Assembly (NCBI GenBank): GCA_902531175.1
Contig: CACADE010000002.1
Coordinates: 1 to 64,000 of the forward strand
Direction of reading: 5' to 3'
Source: an uncultured Pelagibacteraceae bacterium
GTDB lineage: Bacteria > Pseudomonadota > Alphaproteobacteria > Pelagibacterales > Pelagibacteraceae
DNA length: 64,000 nt
Shown here: in pieces, positions 27,433-39,532 of the stretch
How the letters are laid out: each line of letters starts with the position of its first letter
Position numbering within the stretch: the stretch's first letter is position 1
The notes under the pieces: model-generated
Seen by the model: only the letters and a program-made list of their open reading frames with translations
The model's database searches: none
Told to the model about the DNA's origin: nothing
Position numbers and translations under genes: made by a program

Positions 27433-28098
27433 TTCTTTTACTTTTTTAAATAATTTAGTCATTTGTTTTTCATTAATTCGTCCAGTATTTACATTTCTTG
27501 GACTTGGATGATAACACCCCATTAACAATACATTATTAGGTAATTTAAAATATGTTCCATGACCAAATTTTACTCTTTCAGCGTAATCAAAATTTTCTCT
27601 ATAAAATTTTACACAAGTATCAAAAGCGATTTTTCCTAAAGCTACAATTATTTTAAGATTTTTAAGTATTTCAAATTCAGATTTAAAATAACCAAAGCAA
27701 TTTTTTAACTCTTCATTTAATGGCTTATCTCCTGGAGGTACACACTTTAAAGCTGGTGTTATGAAAGTATTTTTTATTTTCAATCCATCATTTACATGAT
27801 CTGAATTACTTTGATTGGCAATTTTTGCATTGTGTAAACATTTATATAAAAAGTCTGAGGATTTATCTCCAGTAAAGACCCGACCTGTCCTGGTTCCACC
27901 ATGGGCTGCTGGTGCTAGACCAACAATCATTATTTTTCCATTTATATCTCCAAAACCTGTAACTGGTTTTCCCCAATAAGTTTGGTCCATATATTGTTTT
28001 CTTTTTTCCGTAGATATTTTTTTTCTAAACCTCACAAGTCTAGGGCATTTATTACATTTAATTATTGTTTTTTTTAATTTTTCAAATTTAACGGTCAT
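27424..28098 (-). CDS. Uracil-DNA glycosylase, family 5 (UdgB-like)
   Basis: CNKCPRLVRFRK, GLAPAAHGGTRTGRVFTGD, CYHPSPRNVNTGR motifs. The track start 28131 runs into glpD; ATG at 28098 (MTVKFEKLKK) is more plausible. Confidence 0.85.
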   Translation of the reverse strand: MTVKFEKLKKTIIKCNKCPRLVRFRKKISTEKRKQYMDQTYWGKPVTGFGDINGKIMIVGLAPAAHGGTRTGRVFTGDKSSDFLYKCLHNAKIANQSNSDHVNDGLKIKNTFITPALKCVPPGDKPLNEELKNCFGYFKSEFEILKNLKIIVALGKIAFDTCVKFYRENFDYAERVKFGHGTYFKLPNNVLLMGCYHPSPRNVNTGRINEKQMTKLFKKVKELV

Positions 28099-28103
28099 TA
28101 AGT

Positions 28104-29255
28104 TTAGAGAAGCTTCTTTTTGTGTGTCCATGGACCTTTTATTGTTTTAGGTAAAAACTTTCTAAGGTCAAAAAGGACTTTTTCAGACAATTTTCTGTAG
28201 GTGGTTAGTTTTCCTCCATATATATTCAATAAAGGTAATTTTTTTATAATTTTTAAATCAAAAACATAATCTCTTGTGACTTTTGAAGCTGTATTAAAAT
28301 CTTCAATTAGAGGTCTTATCCCCGAATAAGTATCTACAATGTCCTTTGTTCTGATTTGTTTTTTTAAGTAATTATTTACTGAACGAATTAAATATGTAAT
28401 TTCTTTTTTTGATATTCCTTTATTTTCTGGTGATTTAACCTCAACTTCTGTAGTTCCAATTAAAGAAAACTTCCCTTTATAAGGTATCACAAATATTATT
28501 CTTTTATCAGTATTTTGAAATGTGAATGCAACATTTTCTTTGTACAATTTTTTTGTAATAATATGACTTCCTTTAACTAATCTTATTTTTTTCTTAGATT
28601 TAATTTTTATATTTTTATTTAAGGTTTCGTTTATCCATGGTCCAGATGCATTAATTAAAATTTTTGATTTTACTTTTTCACCTTTTTCAAGACTAATAAT
28701 CCATTCATTGCCAATAATTTCAGCTTTTTTAACTTTGTTATATTCTAGTATTTTAGCTTTATTTCTTTTTGCATCTTTAGCATTTAGTTTCGTTAATTTT
28801 TTATCGTCAATTTGTATGTCAAAATATTGAAAACCAGTTTTGTATTTTTGCTTAAGAATATTTGAAAATTTTTTTGTAAGATCAAACGTTTTTGATTTTG
28901 GTATATTGCTTTTGCCACCTAAATTATCATACAAAAATAAACCAATTTTAATTAACCAGGCTGGTCGAATTTTATCTGCATAAGGAATTATAAAAGGAAT
29001 CGGTTTGGAAATATGTCTGGCAATTTTATAAACTATTTCTCTTTCTTTCAGAGATTCTCTAACTAGTTTGAATTCATAATTTTCTAAATAACGAAGACCA
29101 CCATGTACTAATTTCGTCGACCAAGATGAGGTTGCTCCTCCAATCTCACCTTTGTCAGCTAAACAAACTGATAAACCTCTACCTGCAGCATCTCTTGCAA
29201 TACCTGCACCGTTTATACCGCCACCTATTATGAATAAATCAAATTTTTTAGACAT
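28104..29255 (-). CDS. glpD: FAD-dependent glycerol-3-phosphate dehydrogenase, short form lacking C-terminal domain
   Basis: FDLFIIGGGINGAGIARDAAGRGLSVCLADKGEIGGATSSWSTKLVHGGLRYLE; IGTTEVEV; GIRPLIED; IYGGKLTTYRKLSE; ends at GPWTHKKKLL. Confidence 0.9.
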   Translation of the reverse strand: MSKKFDLFIIGGGINGAGIARDAAGRGLSVCLADKGEIGGATSSWSTKLVHGGLRYLENYEFKLVRESLKEREIVYKIARHISKPIPFIIPYADKIRPAWLIKIGLFLYDNLGGKSNIPKSKTFDLTKKFSNILKQKYKTGFQYFDIQIDDKKLTKLNAKDAKRNKAKILEYNKVKKAEIIGNEWIISLEKGEKVKSKILINASGPWINETLNKNIKIKSKKKIRLVKGSHIITKKLYKENVAFTFQNTDKRIIFVIPYKGKFSLIGTTEVEVKSPENKGISKKEITYLIRSVNNYLKKQIRTKDIVDTYSGIRPLIEDFNTASKVTRDYVFDLKIIKKLPLLNIYGGKLTTYRKLSEKVLFDLRKFLPKTIKGPWTHKKKLL

Positions 29256-29395
29256 TTAAATTATGATTTGTTTTAAAATATACAACCTCTTTTAGAAATT
29301 TAAAATTTTTAAATGCAATTATTTACAATTTCATAATATCTTAACATTAATAAATTATTAATAAAAAATTAAATAAACTTAACAGAAGGATAGAT

Positions 29396-30703
29396 ATGAA
29401 AAAAATACTTAGTGTTTTAACAATTCTATTTACTTTCTCTTTTACATCACACAGTTATTCAAAAACAGAAATTCATTGGTGGTACGGAAACAGTGGTTTT
29501 CTTGGTGATGTAATTATTGAAATTGCAAATAGATTTAACGCTTCACAAGATCAATATACGGTCATTCCTACAGGAAAAGGAAGTTATGAAGATAACATGG
29601 CGGCAACTATTGCTGCATTTAGAGCAGGCGACCAACCACACTATTCACAGGTTTATGATGCTGGTGCTGCAATCATGGTAGCTCAAGTAAAAAATGGTGT
29701 TGTTATCGGTTTTGAAGAAATGGCTAAGAAATATGGCATTGATGTAGATGCTGACAACTATATTCCAGGCATTAAAAATTTCTATGCCGACTCTGATGGA
29801 AAAATGATTGGTGTACCTTTCAATAGTTCAACTTGTTTGATGTATGCAAACATGGACATTTTGAAAGAGGTTGGAATTGAATCTGTGCCAAAAACTTATG
29901 AAGAATTTGAGGCCATGGCTCCAAAAATCAAAGCTGCTGGATACATTCCTTTAGTTCAAAGTCATAGTCCATGGATTTGGACTGAAAATTTCTTTTCTAG
30001 ACATAATTTATTAATGTTAGATGGAAATAATGGTTACGATGCTGTTCCTACAAAAACTTTATTCGCTGAAACTGATGCATTTGTCTATCATTGGAAGAAA
30101 GTTAAAGAATGGTATGATAAAGGTTTATATGGCTATAAAGGAAGAGCGTGGGGAGACAATCAAGCACCATTTATAGCAGGTGAAGCTGCATTTTGGTTTG
30201 GTTCTGCTGCATCATTTGGTGGAATGAAAGGTGTTGTTCCAAACTTTACAGTTAATCATATTCCTTACTGGGATTCAGTAACCAAAGGAAAAGAGTATCC
30301 AACTTTTATAGGTGGTGCTGCTAACTGGATCTTAAATGGTCATACTGAGGAAGAGTACAAAGGACTTGCTAAATTTATAGAATTTATGGGTTCTCCAGAA
30401 ATGGATCTGTATTATCACAATATGACTGGTTACTCTGCAGTGACTAAAGGTGGTATAGAGTTAGCTGAAACTATAAATTTCTATAGAGCTTCTCCATATC
30501 ATAAAGCAGTTGGTGAACAATTAAGCTTAGAAGGTTCAACTATTCCTGGTGGATATAGAGCTGGTAACTGGCCCCAAATTCGTGAAGTAATTTACGAAAA
30601 TATTGAGCCAATGTTAAACGGCAAAATATCAATCGAAAAAGGATTGCAGAATATGGACAAAGGTGCAGCTAAATTGTTAAAGCAATTTGCTAAAACTTTG
30701 TAA
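29396..30703 (+). CDS. ugpB: sn-glycerol-3-phosphate ABC transporter substrate-binding protein
   Basis: Signal peptide; EIHWWYGNSGFLGDVIIEIANRFNASQDQYTVIPTGKGSYEDNMAATIAAFRAGDQPHYSQVYDAG matches UgpB; operon with ugpA/E/C. Confidence 0.93.
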   Translation: MKKILSVLTILFTFSFTSHSYSKTEIHWWYGNSGFLGDVIIEIANRFNASQDQYTVIPTGKGSYEDNMAATIAAFRAGDQPHYSQVYDAGAAIMVAQVKNGVVIGFEEMAKKYGIDVDADNYIPGIKNFYADSDGKMIGVPFNSSTCLMYANMDILKEVGIESVPKTYEEFEAMAPKIKAAGYIPLVQSHSPWIWTENFFSRHNLLMLDGNNGYDAVPTKTLFAETDAFVYHWKKVKEWYDKGLYGYKGRAWGDNQAPFIAGEAAFWFGSAASFGGMKGVVPNFTVNHIPYWDSVTKGKEYPTFIGGAANWILNGHTEEEYKGLAKFIEFMGSPEMDLYYHNMTGYSAVTKGGIELAETINFYRASPYHKAVGEQLSLEGSTIPGGYRAGNWPQIREVIYENIEPMLNGKISIEKGLQNMDKGAAKLLKQFAKTL

Positions 30704-30716
30704 GAATAATTAAAAC

Positions 30717-30755
30717 AATAAGGAGGGTATTAATTTACCCTCCTTATTTATTTTT
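30717..30755 (+). terminator. Terminator-like hairpin between ugpB and ugpA
   Basis: AATAAGGAGGGTA-ttaatt-TACCCTCCTTATT (13 bp) followed by tatttttac; ugpA starts at 30764. Confidence 0.8.
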
Positions 30756-30763
30756 ACAAAAGT

Positions 30764-31642
30764 ATGAAAAAAGTCCAATTCAAATCTAGCTATTCACAAT
30801 ATCTTTTCTTAGCTCCGCAGCTAGGTATATTGTTAATTTTTTTATATTGGCCAATCATACAAACCTTTAGAGATGCATTTACAATGCAAGATGCTTTTGG
30901 ATTTGGATCGAAGTTTGTATGGTTTGACAATTTTTTATTTATTTTTGATGATCCAGCTTATTTCATAGCTTTCAAATTTACTATTATTTATAGTTTTGTT
31001 ATTACGTTAATTACAGGCTCAATTGGATTATTACTTGCCGTTCAGGCTAATAATGTAATGCATGGTAAAAGCACTTACAAAACACTTTTAATTTGGCCTT
31101 ATGCAATTGCGCCTGCGGTAGTCGGTGTAATGGCAAATTATTTTTTTAGTGAAAGATTTGGTCTTCTTTATCATTTATTTCACGAACTGTGGGGATTTAA
31201 TTGGTACGAAAGTGTGTTCGACTCTTATATTTACGTAATCATAGCTGGTTCTTGGAAGCAAATCAGTGCTAATTTTATTTTCTTCTTGGCTGGACTTCAA
31301 GCTATACAAAAATCTGTAATTGAAGCATCAATGATTGACTGTAAAAATAGTTTCAGAAGATTTTGGACAATTACATTCCCATTATTAATGCCAACTACAT
31401 TCTTTTTAATAATTATTAATATAACGTATGCTTTCTTTGATACATTTGGAATTATTGATACCACAACAATAGGTGCTCCTTCCGGTGAAACAAGAACTCT
31501 AGTTTATAAAGCTTACATGGATGGATTTAGAGGACTGGATTTAGGAAGTGCAGGAGCTCAATCAATAATGATGATGTTGATTGTATTAGTAATTACGATT
31601 TTTCAATTTAGATATATCGAAGGGAAAATACATTATAATTAA
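30764..31642 (+). CDS. ugpA: sn-glycerol-3-phosphate ABC transporter permease
   Basis: Binding-protein-dependent permease; LFLAPQLGILLIFLYWPIIQTFRDAF; EAA-type loop EASMIDCKNSFRRFWTITFPLLMP. Confidence 0.9.
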   Translation: MKKVQFKSSYSQYLFLAPQLGILLIFLYWPIIQTFRDAFTMQDAFGFGSKFVWFDNFLFIFDDPAYFIAFKFTIIYSFVITLITGSIGLLLAVQANNVMHGKSTYKTLLIWPYAIAPAVVGVMANYFFSERFGLLYHLFHELWGFNWYESVFDSYIYVIIAGSWKQISANFIFFLAGLQAIQKSVIEASMIDCKNSFRRFWTITFPLLMPTTFFLIIINITYAFFDTFGIIDTTTIGAPSGETRTLVYKAYMDGFRGLDLGSAGAQSIMMMLIVLVITIFQFRYIEGKIHYN

Positions 31643-32463
31643 TGACTAGATTTATCACATCAAGTTTTTCACATTTAATTTTACTCATTGGAATACTAAT
31701 CATGGTAGTTCCTGTATGGATGATTTTTGCTAGCTCTACGCACACGAGTTCAATGATTAATATGAATGGTCTCCAAATGTTTTTAGGAGATAGCTTTTAT
31801 GAAAATTACTTACGAGTTTTATTATATCAGGGTGGTTTTTTTAAAGAGATAACAGCATTAAAAATGTTTTTTAATAGTTTTATCATGGCTACAGGAGTTG
31901 CAATATTATCCGTTGTTACATCTTTAATGGCTGCTTACGCGTTGGTTTATTACAGAATAAAATATGCAACATTATTGTTTTGGATTATATTTATTACAAT
32001 TTTAGTACCATTAGAGTTAAGAATTTTCCCTACTTATTCAGTAATGGCTGAGCTTAATCTAGTGAATTCTTACTTTGGATTAATAGTTCCTATTTCAGCA
32101 TCAGCTATAGCAACATTATTCTTTCGCCAATTTTATAAAACCGTTCCAGATGAATTACTTGAATCCGCAAAACTTGATGGAGCAAATACCTGGAGATTTT
32201 TTGTTGATTTTTTAATTCCTTTGTCAAAAACAATGATTGTAGCGATGTTAATATTTATGTTTGTTTTTGGCTACAATCAATATCTATGGCCATTATTGGT
32301 AACAACTTCAGAACAATATTGGACAGTGGTTATGGGATTAAAAATGATGTCGGGTTCAATTGTTCATCGTTTTGCTTTCGTGATGATGTCTATGGTGCCA
32401 CCAATTTTAATTATAATTGTGTTGCAGAAATATTTTATTAAGGGGGTTTTTCAAGATAAATGA
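31642..32463 (+). CDS. ugpE: sn-glycerol-3-phosphate ABC transporter permease, copy 1
   Basis: FRQFYKTVPDELLESAKLDGANTWRFFVDFLIPLSKTM EAA loop; overlaps ugpA stop. Confidence 0.9.
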   Translation: MTRFITSSFSHLILLIGILIMVVPVWMIFASSTHTSSMINMNGLQMFLGDSFYENYLRVLLYQGGFFKEITALKMFFNSFIMATGVAILSVVTSLMAAYALVYYRIKYATLLFWIIFITILVPLELRIFPTYSVMAELNLVNSYFGLIVPISASAIATLFFRQFYKTVPDELLESAKLDGANTWRFFVDFLIPLSKTMIVAMLIFMFVFGYNQYLWPLLVTTSEQYWTVVMGLKMMSGSIVHRFAFVMMSMVPPILIIIVLQKYFIKGVFQDK

Positions 32464-33311
32464 AAATTAAACCACTTCAAATAATTGCTCATATTATATT
32501 AATACTAGGAGTCTTGTTAATGGTAGTTCCTATTTGGATATCTTTTGCAAGTTCTTCGCATGACTCTGTAACTATATTAACCGAAGGTATGAAGTTTCAT
32601 ATAGGTGATCAGCTAGCAAGAAACTATAACGAAGTTTTAAATGAAAAAGGTGGTTGGTCAGAAGAAGTGACTGCTGCAAAAATGTTTATTAATAGTTTTA
32701 TAATGGCATTAGGAATTGCAACACTTAAGGTAGTTATTTCAGCAATGTCAGCATATGCTTTGGTTTATTATAGATTTAAATTAGCTGTACCAATTTTTTG
32801 GTTAATCTTTATTACTCTACTTGTTCCTTTGGAGGTAAGGATTTTTCCAAGCTATAAAATTGTATCTGATTTAGGTTTAACAAATTCATATACAGGCCTT
32901 ATCCTTCCATTAGTTGCTTCAGCTACAGCAACATTTTTCTTCAGACAATTTTATAAAACAATTCCAGATGAACTCTTGGAGTCAGCAAAATTAGACGGAG
33001 CAAATGCTTGGAGTTTTTTCATAGATTTCTTGGTTCCATTATCTAAAACCATGATAGCAGCAATGTTTATCTTTATGTTTGTATATGGATACAGCCAATA
33101 TTTATGGCCACTAATAATGACAACTGCAGAAGAATACTGGACTGTTGTAATGGGAATGAAGATTATTTACACAGAAAGCTATGAAGGAGTTGCTCTGCCA
33201 AGAACTGCAGAAAGATTTGCGTATATCATTTTGTCAATGATCCCACCAGTTTTAGTGGTAGTATTTTTACAAAAATGGTTCATAAAAGGATTAATTCAAA
33301 CGGAGAAATAA
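32460..33311 (+). CDS. ugpE: sn-glycerol-3-phosphate ABC transporter permease, copy 2 (tandem paralog)
   Basis: FRQFYKTIPDELLESAKLDGANAWSFFIDFLVPLSKTM; near full-length similarity to the preceding ORF; ATGA overlap. Confidence 0.9.
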   Translation: MKIKPLQIIAHIILILGVLLMVVPIWISFASSSHDSVTILTEGMKFHIGDQLARNYNEVLNEKGGWSEEVTAAKMFINSFIMALGIATLKVVISAMSAYALVYYRFKLAVPIFWLIFITLLVPLEVRIFPSYKIVSDLGLTNSYTGLILPLVASATATFFFRQFYKTIPDELLESAKLDGANAWSFFIDFLVPLSKTMIAAMFIFMFVYGYSQYLWPLIMTTAEEYWTVVMGMKIIYTESYEGVALPRTAERFAYIILSMIPPVLVVVFLQKWFIKGLIQTEK

Positions 33312-34364
33312 ATGAGCTTTTTAGATTTAAAAAATGTGACTAAGATTTACCCAAATGGAACTAAGGCTGTTCATGAAACTTCATTAAGTGTTGATGAAGG
33401 TGAGTTTATGGTTTTTGTAGGACCTAGTGGATGTGGAAAATCAACTTTATTAAGAATGGTTGCAGGCTTAGAGGATATTACAGAGGGTGATATTAATCTT
33501 GATGGAAAATTAATTAATGAGGTAGATCCGTCTGAAAGAGATGTAGCAATGGTGTTTCAGAACTATGCATTATACCCACATATGAATGTTTATAATAACT
33601 TGGCTTATGGTCTAAAAAACAGAGGAATTGACAAAGAAACAATCGAGCAAAAAGTAAATGATGCAGCTAAGCTGTTACAAATTTCAGATTATTTACAGAG
33701 AAAACCTTCAATGTTATCCGGAGGTCAAAGGCAAAGGGTTGCAATGGGTAGAGCAATTGTTAGAAATCCAAAAATATTCTTATTTGATGAACCTCTTTCA
33801 AATTTAGATGCAAAATTAAGAATTCAGATGAGACTTGAAATCAAAAAACTTCAACAGAAAGTTGGAGTAACAAGCATATTTGTTACGCATGATCAAGTAG
33901 AGGCCATGACACTTGCTGATAGATTAGCAGTTATTAACAATGGAATTATTGAACAGCTTGGAACTCCTATTGAGATATATGATAATCCAAAATCATTATT
34001 TGTTGCTGGTTTTATTGGCTCACCTCAAATGAATTTTTTAGATGGTAATATAAAAAATAAAACATTATCTGCAGAAGGTTTTGAAATTAAAGATATTGAT
34101 AGTGACTTTGAGGGAGAAGTAAAATTAGGAATAAGACCTGAACATTTAAGTCAAAGTGAAAATAGTTTAATTAATTTAAAAGTAGACTTAGTGGAACAAC
34201 TTGGTTCGGATAATCTTGTTTATGGTCAATTAAAAGACAAAAAAGACTTTTGTTATAGGTGTCCGGGAAATCTAACTATTGAAAAAGGTGCTGATCTAAG
34301 TCTTAATATTGAGAACAATAAATATTATATTTTTGATAAAAGCACTGGCAAAAGAGTTAATTAA
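33312..34364 (+). CDS. ugpC: sn-glycerol-3-phosphate ABC transporter ATP-binding protein
   Basis: Walker A GPSGCGKST, LSGGQRQRVAMGRAIVR, Walker B IFLFDEPLSNLDAKLR, C-terminal TOBE-like region. Confidence 0.93.
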   Translation: MSFLDLKNVTKIYPNGTKAVHETSLSVDEGEFMVFVGPSGCGKSTLLRMVAGLEDITEGDINLDGKLINEVDPSERDVAMVFQNYALYPHMNVYNNLAYGLKNRGIDKETIEQKVNDAAKLLQISDYLQRKPSMLSGGQRQRVAMGRAIVRNPKIFLFDEPLSNLDAKLRIQMRLEIKKLQQKVGVTSIFVTHDQVEAMTLADRLAVINNGIIEQLGTPIEIYDNPKSLFVAGFIGSPQMNFLDGNIKNKTLSAEGFEIKDIDSDFEGEVKLGIRPEHLSQSENSLINLKVDLVEQLGSDNLVYGQLKDKKDFCYRCPGNLTIEKGADLSLNIENNKYYIFDKSTGKRVN

Positions 34365-34366
34365 TT

Positions 34367-35287
34367 TTGATTTTAAGCAAACCAAATCATATAAAAATTT
34401 ATGGTCACCGAGGAGCAAGAGGAGATCTTCCCGAAAACACTCTAGAAAGTTTTAAATACTTATTTGAAAACAATATTAATGCATACGAAACAGATATATT
34501 AATTTCTAAGGATCTTGTACCAGTTATTGCTCATGATTTTAGATTAGATCCAAGCAGAACAAAAGATAATGAGGGGAATTGGATAGAGGATGAAAATTTA
34601 AAAATATTTGATTTAACTTATGCAGAACTTTCAAAGTTTGATGTAGGTTCAGTAAATAAATTATCCAGATACGGAAGAAGATTTATTAATCAAAAAAAAT
34701 TAGAAAACCAAAGAATACCAAAACTTTCTGAATTATTAGAAATGTCTTCAAAAAATAAATCTGAAAAATTATTAATAAATTTAGAAATTAAATCTACACC
34801 AGAGGAAGAAAATTTGACACCAGAACCAGAAGATACAGTAAAATTAATTATGAACGATATAAATGAATCATCTTTAAAAGATAAAATAATCGTTTCATCA
34901 TTTGATTGGAGAACTTTATCAGTAATTAAAAATCAGTATCCTGAAATTCCAAGAGCTTACTTAACTCAACATTTGACAGGAATTAATATTAATCAAACTA
35001 TTTACAACAGATCTCCATGGTTGAGTTTTTTGCCTTATTATGAAGATCATGAATTGCCAAAAATTATAAAGTCACAAGGTGGAAAAGCTTGGCATCCATA
35101 CCGAAAAGACATTACAAAAAAACTTGTCGATATTTCTCATCAAGAAGAATTGCCAGTAAATGTATGGACAGTAAACAAAGAGTACGAAATGTTAAAGATG
35201 GTTGAGTACGGTGTAGATGGTATTATGACAGATTATCCATTAAGGTTGAAAGAACTTTGTGAGAAAGAAAATATAAAATGGTTTTAG
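34367..35287 (+). CDS. ugpQ: Glycerophosphodiester phosphodiesterase (TTG start)
   Basis: IYGHRGARGDLPENTLESFKYLFE...ETDILISKDLVPVIAHDF; VNVWTVNKEYEMLKMVEYGVDGIMTDYP. Confidence 0.92.
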   Translation: MILSKPNHIKIYGHRGARGDLPENTLESFKYLFENNINAYETDILISKDLVPVIAHDFRLDPSRTKDNEGNWIEDENLKIFDLTYAELSKFDVGSVNKLSRYGRRFINQKKLENQRIPKLSELLEMSSKNKSEKLLINLEIKSTPEEENLTPEPEDTVKLIMNDINESSLKDKIIVSSFDWRTLSVIKNQYPEIPRAYLTQHLTGININQTIYNRSPWLSFLPYYEDHELPKIIKSQGGKAWHPYRKDITKKLVDISHQEELPVNVWTVNKEYEMLKMVEYGVDGIMTDYPLRLKELCEKENIKWF

Positions 35288-35296
35288 TTTATCTTA

Positions 35297-36016
35297 ATGG
35301 ATTTAAATATAGTTAATAACCAAGAGAAATTTTTAGCAGGAAAACTTGAAGGATATACTTTAAAAGGTGCAGAAAATAAATTTGATGATAGAGGAAATCC
35401 TTTACCATTTCCAGGCTGCACAATAATTTGCAATATTCCTCTTAATACTAATTTATCTGATCAAATTATTAGTTTTCAAAAAAATATAGAGAATTTTAAC
35501 CCCAAAAAAACTTACTTCTATTTACCTCCATCCAGTTTTCATATGACATTATTTGATTGTTGTAATTTTAATACAAAAGACACTAATTATTGGCCATCAG
35601 ATATAGATCCTGATATGGATTATAAAGATATAGCTGTTGAATTAAATAGAAGAATTCAGAACTATATCTTTCCAAAAGAATTCAATCTTAAACTAAAAAT
35701 GTTTTTTGGAGGATACAGTATTATTTTAGAACCATATTCTGAAAAGGATGAAAAAATATTAAGAAATTGTAGAGATGAACTAAGTAGCTTATTAAAAATT
35801 AAATTTGAAAACCATCAAAGATATACTTTTCATATTACTTTTGCATATATCTTAAGAGAGCTTAGTGAGATTGAAATAAGTAATTTAATTGAATTTAATA
35901 AAAAACTATTTTTAGACTTTAGTAAAAAATTTCCAAAAATTACTTTTTCAAAACCTGAAATGTGTACTTTTGAGAACATGTTAGAATTTAAAAGTGTTAA
36001 TCCTTCCAGTCTGTAA
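35297..36016 (+). CDS. DUF1868-like 2H phosphoesterase superfamily protein
   Basis: Two HxT motifs in the right arrangement: SSFHMTLFDCC and YTFHITFAYI; N-terminal DDRGNPLPFPGCTIICN. Confidence 0.75.
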   Translation: MDLNIVNNQEKFLAGKLEGYTLKGAENKFDDRGNPLPFPGCTIICNIPLNTNLSDQIISFQKNIENFNPKKTYFYLPPSSFHMTLFDCCNFNTKDTNYWPSDIDPDMDYKDIAVELNRRIQNYIFPKEFNLKLKMFFGGYSIILEPYSEKDEKILRNCRDELSSLLKIKFENHQRYTFHITFAYILRELSEIEISNLIEFNKKLFLDFSKKFPKITFSKPEMCTFENMLEFKSVNPSSL

Positions 36017-36215
36017 CAGTTTTTAATTCTAAATATTCTTTAAGCCCCAAACTCAATCAGCTCATAATAGATATGATTATTTGTTATTATTAAAATTTTC
36101 ATCAAATTTAAAATTGTTTTTTATCGAGCATAAGTAATAATTAGTTTAAATTTTTTTAATAAATCTTTCACTTTTTAGTAAAAATACTTTCATATTTTAT
36201 AACGATTATCCCGTT

Positions 36216-37979
36216 ATGAAATTATTTTTAATTATTTTTTCACTTATTTTAAGTTCATCAGCTTTAGCAGATAAAATTACCATTTTACATATAAATGATC
36301 ATCACTCTCATTTGGAACCAAATAAAAGACTTGATTTAAATTTAGATGGTGAAAAGACGAGAGTTGTATCAGGCGGTTTTCCATCTGTCGTAGCAAAATT
36401 TAAAGAATTAAAATTAAAAAATGAAAATGTTATCAAGCTTCATGCGGGTGATGCTATTACAGGGACATTATATTACACTCTTTTCAAGGGCAAAGCAGAT
36501 GCAGAAATGATGAATCAAATTTGTTTTGATGCTTTCGCTATAGGAAATCATGAATTTGATGATGGTGATAAGAGTTTAGTTGAGTTTTTAGATTATCTTC
36601 ATACTGATAAGTGTAAGACTCCAGTTTTGTCAGCAAACATTAAAGCAAAAATAAACTCACCTTTGTCAAAAAAAATTAAACCTTACACTATAATCAATAA
36701 AGGAAATCAAAAAATTGGAGTAATTGGAATTGTGATCTCAAAAAAAACGAGAGAGTCATCAAATCCAGACGACACAACTTTATTTTTAGATGAAATTAAT
36801 TCAGCACAAGAAAATATAAATAAGCTTAAACAACAAGGAATCAATAAGATAATTCTTTTAACTCATTATGGATATAAAAATGAGATTAACATGGCTAAAC
36901 TTCTCACAGATGTTGATGTTATAGTTGGAGGTGATTCTCATAGTCTAACTGGAGATTTCGATAATGTAGGACTAAATTCTAATGGGGCCTACCCAACTGT
37001 AGTCAAAAATAAAAATGAGGAAGATGTTTGTATAGTTACAGCATGGGAATATTCTCAAATTGTTGGAGAACTTAATATCGAGTTTAATAACGATGGCACC
37101 ATCAAGTCATGTGATGGAATACCACATATAATGTTAGATGATTCCTTTAAGAGAAAAGATTCAAATGGAAAAAGAGTTGAGATAGATGGTAATTATAGAG
37201 AAGCCGTATACAAGGCTATCGAAGTTAATCCAAATATTTCAATCGTAGAGGCTGACGCACAAGCATCAAAAATATTAGAAAAATACAAAAATGAAGTTAA
37301 AGAAAAAAGCAGTGAAGTAATTGGCAGAGTAACTGATGATTTATGTCTTGAAAGAATTCCTGGACAAGGAAAGTCAAAACTTTGTGATGTATCAAAAACT
37401 GAAAAAAATGGATCCGATATTTCGAATATTGTAGCACACGCCTTCAGAGAAATGTCCAAATTAAGTGATATTGCAATTCAAAATGGTGGTGGAACAAGAA
37501 TAGATATAAAAGAAGGCAATATTACAATTGGGGACGCGTATACTTTATTACCTTTCAGTAATACTATTGTAGAATTGAAAATGAGTGGAGAAGAAATTAA
37601 AAATGTTTTGGAAGACTCAATTGATTATGCTTTAACTCCAGATGGTTCTACAGGAGCCTATCCATATGCTGCTGGATTGAGATGGGATGTTCAAGCAAGC
37701 AATAGTAAAGGAAATAGAGTGATAAATTTAGAGTTTAAGGGTAGAACAGACAAGAGTTGGGTAAAGATAAATCCAAGTAAGACTTATACAGTAGCAACAA
37801 ATAACTATATTGCAGCTGGTAAAGATGGATATAAAACTTTTGGAATTATATCTAAGCAAGGAAGAGTAGTAAATACATATCTCGGCTATGCTCAATCTTT
37901 TGTAGATTATGTCAAAAAGATAAAAACTTTATCAAAACTTCCCTTGTCAGAATATTCAACTCAATCTTTCACTAAATAA
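36216..37979 (+). CDS. Secreted 5'-nucleotidase/UshA-like metallophosphatase
   Basis: Signal peptide; HINDHHSHLEP, KLHAGDAITGTLYYTLF, AIGNHEFDDG, C-terminal IQNGGGTRIDIKEGNITIGDAYTLLPFSNTIVEL. Confidence 0.92.
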   Translation: MKLFLIIFSLILSSSALADKITILHINDHHSHLEPNKRLDLNLDGEKTRVVSGGFPSVVAKFKELKLKNENVIKLHAGDAITGTLYYTLFKGKADAEMMNQICFDAFAIGNHEFDDGDKSLVEFLDYLHTDKCKTPVLSANIKAKINSPLSKKIKPYTIINKGNQKIGVIGIVISKKTRESSNPDDTTLFLDEINSAQENINKLKQQGINKIILLTHYGYKNEINMAKLLTDVDVIVGGDSHSLTGDFDNVGLNSNGAYPTVVKNKNEEDVCIVTAWEYSQIVGELNIEFNNDGTIKSCDGIPHIMLDDSFKRKDSNGKRVEIDGNYREAVYKAIEVNPNISIVEADAQASKILEKYKNEVKEKSSEVIGRVTDDLCLERIPGQGKSKLCDVSKTEKNGSDISNIVAHAFREMSKLSDIAIQNGGGTRIDIKEGNITIGDAYTLLPFSNTIVELKMSGEEIKNVLEDSIDYALTPDGSTGAYPYAAGLRWDVQASNSKGNRVINLEFKGRTDKSWVKINPSKTYTVATNNYIAAGKDGYKTFGIISKQGRVVNTYLGYAQSFVDYVKKIKTLSKLPLSEYSTQSFTK

Positions 37980-38053
37980 TTTAAATTTCATATCCTTCCA
38001 GCTTGTATTAGTTTTTACTTTTAGAAAAAAAAATTTAGGTATAGACTTAAATT

Positions 38054-39532
38054 GTGAAAAAATTTCTTGTTGCTATTGACCAAGGCACAACATCAACTAG
38101 AGCAATTCTCTTTGATTTAGATGGTAATATAAAATTTACATCCCAGTTTGAATTTAATCAATATTTTCCAAAAAATGGATGGGTGGAGCATAATCCAAAC
38201 GAAATTTGGCTTACAACTCTAAAAGCGTTGAAAAAAGTAATAAAAAAAGCATCACTATTAAGAGGAAAAATATTAAGTATAGGAATAACTAACCAGAGAG
38301 AGACAACTATTCTTTGGAATAAGAAAACAGGAAAACCAGTCTACAACGCAATTGTTTGGCAAGATAGAAGAACCCAAGACTATTGTGAAGAGTTAAAGAA
38401 AAAAAATTATGAAAAAATTTTTAGAAAAAAAACTGGATTATTTATTGACCCATATTTTTCCGCAACTAAAATTAAATGGATACTAGAAAACGTAAAAAAT
38501 GTTAAGAAACTTTTAAAATCAAATAATTTATTATTTGGTACTGTTGATACTTTCCTTATTTGGAAACTTACTAATCGGCAACATCATTTAACAGAAGCAA
38601 CTAATGCTTGTAGGACCATGTTATTTAACATTAATAATAATAAATGGGATAAAGAAATCTTAAAAAAACTTAAAATTTCTGAAAATATTTTGCCAAAAGT
38701 TAAAAATTCAGCTGATAATTTTGGTTTAACAAGTAAGAGAATTGTCGGCAGTGAAATACCAATATCAGCAGTTCTAGGAGACCAACAAGCAGCTGCAGTA
38801 GGACAGTCATGCTTTGAAAGAGGTTCAGTAAAAAGCACATATGGAACTGGTGCCTTTGTCATAATGAATACTGGTTCAAAAAAAATTTATTCTAAAAATA
38901 AATTATTAACAACAATATGTTACAGATTGAATGGAAAAAATACTTATGCTCTTGAAGGATCTATTTTTATTGCAGGTGCAGGTGTACAATGGTTAAGAGA
39001 TAAATTAAAATTTATTAACAATGCTTTTGATACGGAAACAATTGCTCAATCAAAAAAAAATAATGAGGGTGTATACGTTGTGCCTGCCTTCAGTGGAATG
39101 GGAGCACCTTATTGGAGGCCTGATGCAAGAGGGGTAATAACAGGTTTAACAAGAAATAGTGATTGGAAAACCTTAGTTAGAGCAGTATTAGAGTCAGTTG
39201 CCTATCAAAGTAATGATTTATTTAATGCAATGAAAAAAGATGGTTTAAAACCAACTAAACTTAAGATTGATGGAGGCATGGTAAAAAACAACTGGTTTTC
39301 GCAATTTTTATCTGACATCATAAATATAAATACAGAAAGACCAAAGGTATTAGAAACAACTGGTTTAGGAGTAGCTTTACTAGCTGGATATCAAATTGGA
39401 TTATTTAAATCATTATATCAAATCAAGAGGAAATGGAAAAAAGATAAAATTTTTAAGCCTAAAATAAACCGAAAAGTTAGGAACGATTTAATAAATGGTT
39501 GGAAATTATCAGTTCAGAAAGCTCTATTATAA
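38054..39532 (+). CDS. glpK: Glycerol kinase (GTG start)
   Basis: AIDQGTTSTRAILFD; GWVEHNPNEIW; NQRETTILWNKKTGKPVYNAIVWQDRRT; LGDQQAAAVGQ; FSGMGAPYWRPDARGVI. Confidence 0.97.
   Translation: MKKFLVAIDQGTTSTRAILFDLDGNIKFTSQFEFNQYFPKNGWVEHNPNEIWLTTLKALKKVIKKASLLRGKILSIGITNQRETTILWNKKTGKPVYNAIVWQDRRTQDYCEELKKKNYEKIFRKKTGLFIDPYFSATKIKWILENVKNVKKLLKSNNLLFGTVDTFLIWKLTNRQHHLTEATNACRTMLFNINNNKWDKEILKKLKISENILPKVKNSADNFGLTSKRIVGSEIPISAVLGDQQAAAVGQSCFERGSVKSTYGTGAFVIMNTGSKKIYSKNKLLTTICYRLNGKNTYALEGSIFIAGAGVQWLRDKLKFINNAFDTETIAQSKKNNEGVYVVPAFSGMGAPYWRPDARGVITGLTRNSDWKTLVRAVLESVAYQSNDLFNAMKKDGLKPTKLKIDGGMVKNNWFSQFLSDIININTERPKVLETTGLGVALLAGYQIGLFKSLYQIKRKWKKDKIFKPKINRKVRNDLINGWKLSVQKALL

Follow-up and report, generated by a model that had tools for sequence, protein, structure and literature searches.

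Textbooks describe type I importers as machines made of two halves, and the norm for CUT1 systems is two permease halves per complex. The operon described here contains three permease genes alongside one substrate-binding protein and one ATPase. It is located on contig C2 of a 1.30-Mb SAR11 genome, within the stretch of 64,000 nucleotides that was analysed as a whole (hereafter, the window).

A ugp-type operon with three permease genes

All genes of the operon are on the + strand, in the order ugpB-ugpA-E1-E2-ugpC-GDPD. The ugpB-like gene (29396..30703) encodes a 435-aa substrate-binding protein of the SBP_bac_8 family and is followed by a ugpA-like permease gene (292 aa; 30764..31642), two adjacent UgpE-type permease genes of 273 aa (E1; 31642..32463) and 283 aa (E2; 32460..33311), the ugpC ATPase gene (350 aa; 33312..34364), and a gene for a glycerophosphodiester phosphodiesterase (GDPD, E = 2.9e-41; 34367..35287), the start of which has no evident signal peptide. 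The ugpA stop and the E1 start share one base (TAATG), and the E1 and E2 reading frames overlap by ATGA. A sequence-only reading of the window had reported this overlapping pair and the content of the operon (three permeases, one binding protein, and one ATPase); we found the pair at the same coordinates, and domain matches gave the same gene content. Among the 28 permease-domain matches genome-wide, ugpA-E1-E2 was the sole three-permease cluster. A genome-wide search by position for a spare binding protein of the SBP_bac_8 family left none over for E1.

Several other genes were observed around the operon. A gene encoding a 2H-phosphodiesterase-like protein (35297..36016, + strand; PF08975, E = 2.3e-23) accompanies the SAR11 cassette, and a glycerol kinase gene (38054-39532) and a GlpD-like gene (28104-29255, - strand) are located nearby. 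Of the 508 positions of the glycerol-3-phosphate dehydrogenase model, the GlpD-like protein (383 aa) matched 4-392 only, with the C-terminal part absent; the length of the protein is conserved in one of the more distant carriers (L240).

UgpC scored above its NCBIfam equivalog cut-off (521.3 vs 432 bits), whereas UgpB (262.6 vs 411 bits) and UgpA (263.2 vs 335 bits) fell below theirs. UgpE was the best NCBIfam model for both copies, with 234.8 bits for E1 and 280.6 bits for E2, neither of which reaches the cut-off of 297. Because only UgpC passes, we refer to the system as 'Ugp-like'. Both copies have the features of type I importer permeases of the CUT1 class, namely a Pfam BPD_transp_1 match above cut-off, a MalG-type fold in the predicted models, and an EAA-type motif (ESAKLDGA). 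The operon resembles E. coli UgpB-AEC2, the CUT1 importer of sn-glycerol-3-phosphate, in its homologous subunits and its B-A-E-C order with a GDPD; apart from the low scores of UgpB, UgpA, and UgpE, it differs in having two UgpE instead of one, and Asp/His instead of Glu/Trp in the UgpB pocket. Over their whole length, E1 and E2 were identical at 162 of 273 positions (59%; 79% similar), with one 9-residue gap (BLASTP, E = 1e-125), in line with the full-length alignment that had been described earlier.

In the UgpA of this subfamily, Cys replaces the usual Gly in the EAA motif (DC instead of DG; 30764-31642). The DC is ancestral to this subfamily and common to most of the single-copy sister subfamily, which rules out the replacement of a defective UgpA by E1. 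These single-copy Ugp-like operons from Alpha- and Gammaproteobacteria (e.g., L145-L151, L173, and L232) encode the closest single-copy UgpE (about 53-60% identical to E2); unlike the operon described here, they contain a single ugpE, whose product has the TM5-TM6 loop at full length.

Common origin, joint retention and horizontal spread of the pair

A maximum-likelihood tree of 93 rows was built, including single-copy UgpE from Alpha- and Gammaproteobacteria, E. coli, and a Photobacterium plasmid. The E1 and E2 clades were sisters relative to all single-copy UgpE, with a support of 100/99; the copies are thus true duplicates, as had been proposed, and not distant, non-sister paralogues. Within each clade, separate subgroups were formed by sequences from SAR11 and from a second group (f32), which, from its place as a separate order, we infer to consist of HIMB59-type bacteria. 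A single duplication therefore took place, before those copies diverged. The proposal to date the duplication with a UgpE tree had been framed within Pelagibacterales; the sister relationship stood, but not an event internal to this order, as the operon and its duplication are common to HIMB59-type bacteria. The stem of E1 was twice as long as that of E2 (0.62 versus 0.31). Other SAR11 genera carry a single-ugpE operon (L018-L031 and L252), from the same bacterial family and with the B-A-E-C-GDPD order, whose UgpE belongs to a different clade.

Both copies were present in 45 of the 45 SAR11 genomes carrying the system and in 37 of the 41 HIMB59-type genomes with a match; the remaining four had one copy, partial or adjoining a contig start. 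The recurrence of the same pair in dozens of independent genomes rules out an assembly artefact or a private duplication, and agrees with the expectation that relatives would share it. No further tandem pair was among the matches listed for the sampled genomes (385 from the class, 399 from the phylum); where a genome had two matches, these lay at separate places. By comparison of locus context, the GDPD gene is missing from the HIMB59-type operon. A literature search, with subscription papers largely outside its coverage, returned no description of a ugpE duplication; ugp genes ('upgEBQ') have been noted in one coastal SAR11 genus (PMC12636525), and ugp goes unmentioned in a paper on the HIMB59 phosphate island (PMC10734472).

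Between SAR11 and HIMB59-type bacteria, identity was 89-90% for UgpB, 88-90% for UgpA, 86-89% for E2, and 74-75% for E1, versus 55% (full length) and 56-57%, respectively, for the housekeeping proteins Lon and NuoM. The values for UgpB, UgpA, and E2 are far above those for Lon and NuoM, and the already duplicated operon was therefore transferred horizontally between the two orders. The UgpC proteins of SAR11 and HIMB59-type bacteria were monophyletic sisters, which leaves a replacement of ugpC from another source unsupported. The UgpC of the window was about 81% identical to the HIMB59-type protein over the first 216 residues but only 62-64% over the whole length (L203, L206, L219, and L249-L251); divergence has therefore been much stronger in the regulatory C-terminal part than in the ATPase core.

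Within SAR11, genome G088 encodes an E2 protein identical to that of the window, although for Lon and NuoM the identity is 85% and 79%, respectively. In seven relatives, a block from about 28 to 38 kb, ending near 34 kb in some of them, was 99-100% identical to the window, with one or both flanks at 92-97%. This pattern resembles the outcome of a recent sweep by recombination, in which the ugp cassette (28000-38000) spread across closely related SAR11 species. In more distant carriers (L233, L235, L240-L243, and L247), the match was confined to positions 29270-36054 of the window and the neighbouring genes differed; the cassette therefore occupies other chromosomal places there. A NadN-like nucleotidase gene (36216-37979) was absent from many otherwise near-identical loci, which showed a gap at 36026-37991 and resumed their match at 37992.

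Both copies are under purifying selection. Pairwise dN/dS (NG86) was mostly 0.03-0.06 for E1, about 0-0.04 for E2, and 0.01-0.03 for UgpA; E1 values of 0.06-0.10 were obtained for SAR11 to HIMB59-type comparisons, in which dS was saturated. E1 is thus under constraint, if somewhat less tightly than E2, and the earlier view that neither copy is decaying was borne out. It is very improbable that E1 represents neutral dosage redundancy or a decaying copy: E1 is shorter and evolves faster, as such a reading would have it, but its dN/dS is well below 1, which already contradicts decay, the two copies are jointly retained across two orders of streamlined genomes, and no broken E1 was observed among the uncut loci.

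The EAA/coupling region, predicted by the sequence-only reading to be kept in both copies, was the most similar stretch between E1 and E2 (88% identical). No sign of gene conversion was detected, as E1-E2 DNA identity was no higher within than between lineages, which rules out recent gene conversion as the cause of the likeness of the EAA loops. Together, these two results suggest that both copies are held to the same ATPase.

Derived changes in E1 and E2

Between the MG/IG and PP motifs, the counted segment of the periplasmic TM5-TM6 loop measured 19 residues in 18 of 18 E1 and 28 in 18 of 18 E2. In the 57 single UgpE, it measured 27-28 residues in the 21 nearest to the pair and 25 in the 36 others. 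The short segment occurs only in E1, and a 9-residue deletion is therefore derived in E1. This reverses the polarity given previously, when the second copy was said to have an extra segment: the full-length loop is ancestral, and it is the first copy that carries the deletion.

Point changes were observed in both copies. K90, V126, and T156 (E2 numbering) were invariant in 57 of 57 single UgpE and replaced by S, L, and I, respectively, in 18 of 18 E1. N212, present in 56 of 57 single UgpE, was S in E2, and W211, invariant in single UgpE, was Y in both E1 and E2. Overall, E2 was nearer to single-copy UgpE than E1. K90 is situated within a predicted long helix (72-103), where the MalG/SugB alignments contain no lysine; we infer, as plausible, a role of this residue in phosphate recognition.

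AlphaFold2 models of E1 and E2 (pLDDT 81 for both) had SugB and MalG as best matches, that is, permeases of mycobacterial LpqY-SugABC and E. coli MalFGK2, which have sugar substrates and exactly two permeases per system, in contrast to the three permease genes found here. In MalFGK2, the scoop loop of MalG reaches into the maltose-binding protein. A role of this loop in transfer from MalE has been mentioned (PMC8134467). E2 has the full-length TM5-TM6 loop of a MalG-type scoop-loop half (28 residues) and E1 does not (19 residues); by alignment to MalG, the E1 deletion appears to fall at the scoop-loop position, in a loop modelled with low confidence in E2. Substrate hand-over is expected to depend on features that E1 no longer has, so the two copies are probably not interchangeable.

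We give an even chance to the reading in which UgpA-E2 is the ordinary importer and E1 would create a second, altered UgpA-E1 importer working with the same UgpB and UgpC, a pairing drawn from the features above and already proposed in the sequence-only reading. The losses in E1 could equally mean that it does not carry the substrate in question, or no transport at all, and E1 and E2 would be in competition for one UgpA and one UgpB. E1 might instead be a non-transporting accessory or regulatory subunit that tunes UgpA-E2, for instance by competing for UgpA or UgpC. We consider this unlikely: E1 is the fastest-evolving permease (74% identity between orders, against 86-90% for UgpA and E2) and is the copy from which the loop and two invariant residues are missing, but the EAA loop is intact, the MalG-type fold is complete, and purifying selection is strong, all of which favour a working, ATPase-coupled half.

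In another reading, UgpA-E2 remains the ordinary importer and E1, at the UgpA-side position, joins E2 in a second heterodimer. One scoop loop suffices per complex, and E1 is the copy without it; moreover, different conserved residues are altered in the two copies (K90 and T156 in E1, N212 in E2), as might be expected of complementary halves. The E1 model was, however, far nearer to the MalG/SugB side (E = 4.6e-08) than to the MalF/SugA side (E = 6.9e-04), and UgpA is still the most constrained permease; we regard this arrangement as quite improbable.

Putative substrate and routes of import

The UgpB pocket was aligned with PDB entries 9lff and 4aq4 and compared with the description of Phaeobacter UgpB (PMC12718374). 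In this glycerol-3-phosphate (G3P) pocket, Tyr64, Ser143, Ser266, and Tyr342 are assigned to the phosphate, Glu88, Gly303, and Arg393 to the glycerol, and Trp188/Trp191 form a clamp (PMC12718374). The UgpB of the window retains Tyr64, Ser143, Tyr342, Gly303, Arg393, and Trp191, with a similar Ser266 region. Glu88 is replaced by Asp and Trp188 by His, in SAR11 and HIMB59-type bacteria alike, so that the pocket departs from the G3P type; by sequence alone, it corresponds to the glycerophosphocholine (GPC) type, with Asp at the Glu88 site and a non-Trp residue (His) at the Trp169/188 site. The GPC importer UgpABCE of M. tuberculosis has substitutions at the same two positions, with Asp102 at the Glu88 site (PMC12718374) and Leu205 at the Trp188 site (PMC7034087), the latter reported to be decisive for GPC over G3P (PMC12718374, PMC7034087); it differs from the present system in its single UgpE, its distant lineage, and the presence of Leu rather than His at the Trp site. 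The UgpB of the Photobacterium relative has Asp and Leu at the Glu88 and Trp188 positions, and that of the single-ugpE SAR11 operon, unlike here, keeps Glu and both Trp.

Our best guess, from the UgpB pocket, the downstream GDPD without an evident signal peptide, and the nearby glycerol kinase and GlpD-like genes, is that a glycerophosphodiester, and not G3P, is probably the substrate. A single tandem duplication of ugpE in a Ugp-like CUT1 operon preceded the spread of the operon between SAR11 and HIMB59-type bacteria and, in the mechanism that we propose, would have given two specialised halves. UgpA-E2 with two UgpC would import a glycerol compound that contains phosphorus, with a glycerophosphodiester as the most likely candidate; UgpB would deliver it and GDPD would cleave it inside the cell. 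UgpA-E1, with the same UgpB and UgpC, would be a second importer that differs in substrate release or selectivity, since E1 has neither the scoop-loop segment nor the transmembrane lysine and conserved threonine. That one operon makes two importers, with UgpB feeding two routes that differ in selectivity or rate, either by swapping E2 for the scoop-less, lysine-less E1 or through an E1-E2 heterodimer, is a tentative proposal, to which we give slightly less than an even chance.

A strictly co-inherited and strongly selected third half, missing hand-over and pore features, constitutes a natural separation-of-function pair in a class of two-half machines. It is found in marine bacteria some of which rank among the most abundant, in a putative route for phosphorus from lipid head groups, and on a cassette that has been exchanged between two orders of bacteria and apparently also between SAR11 species, in the latter case as a 10-kb block that is nearly identical.
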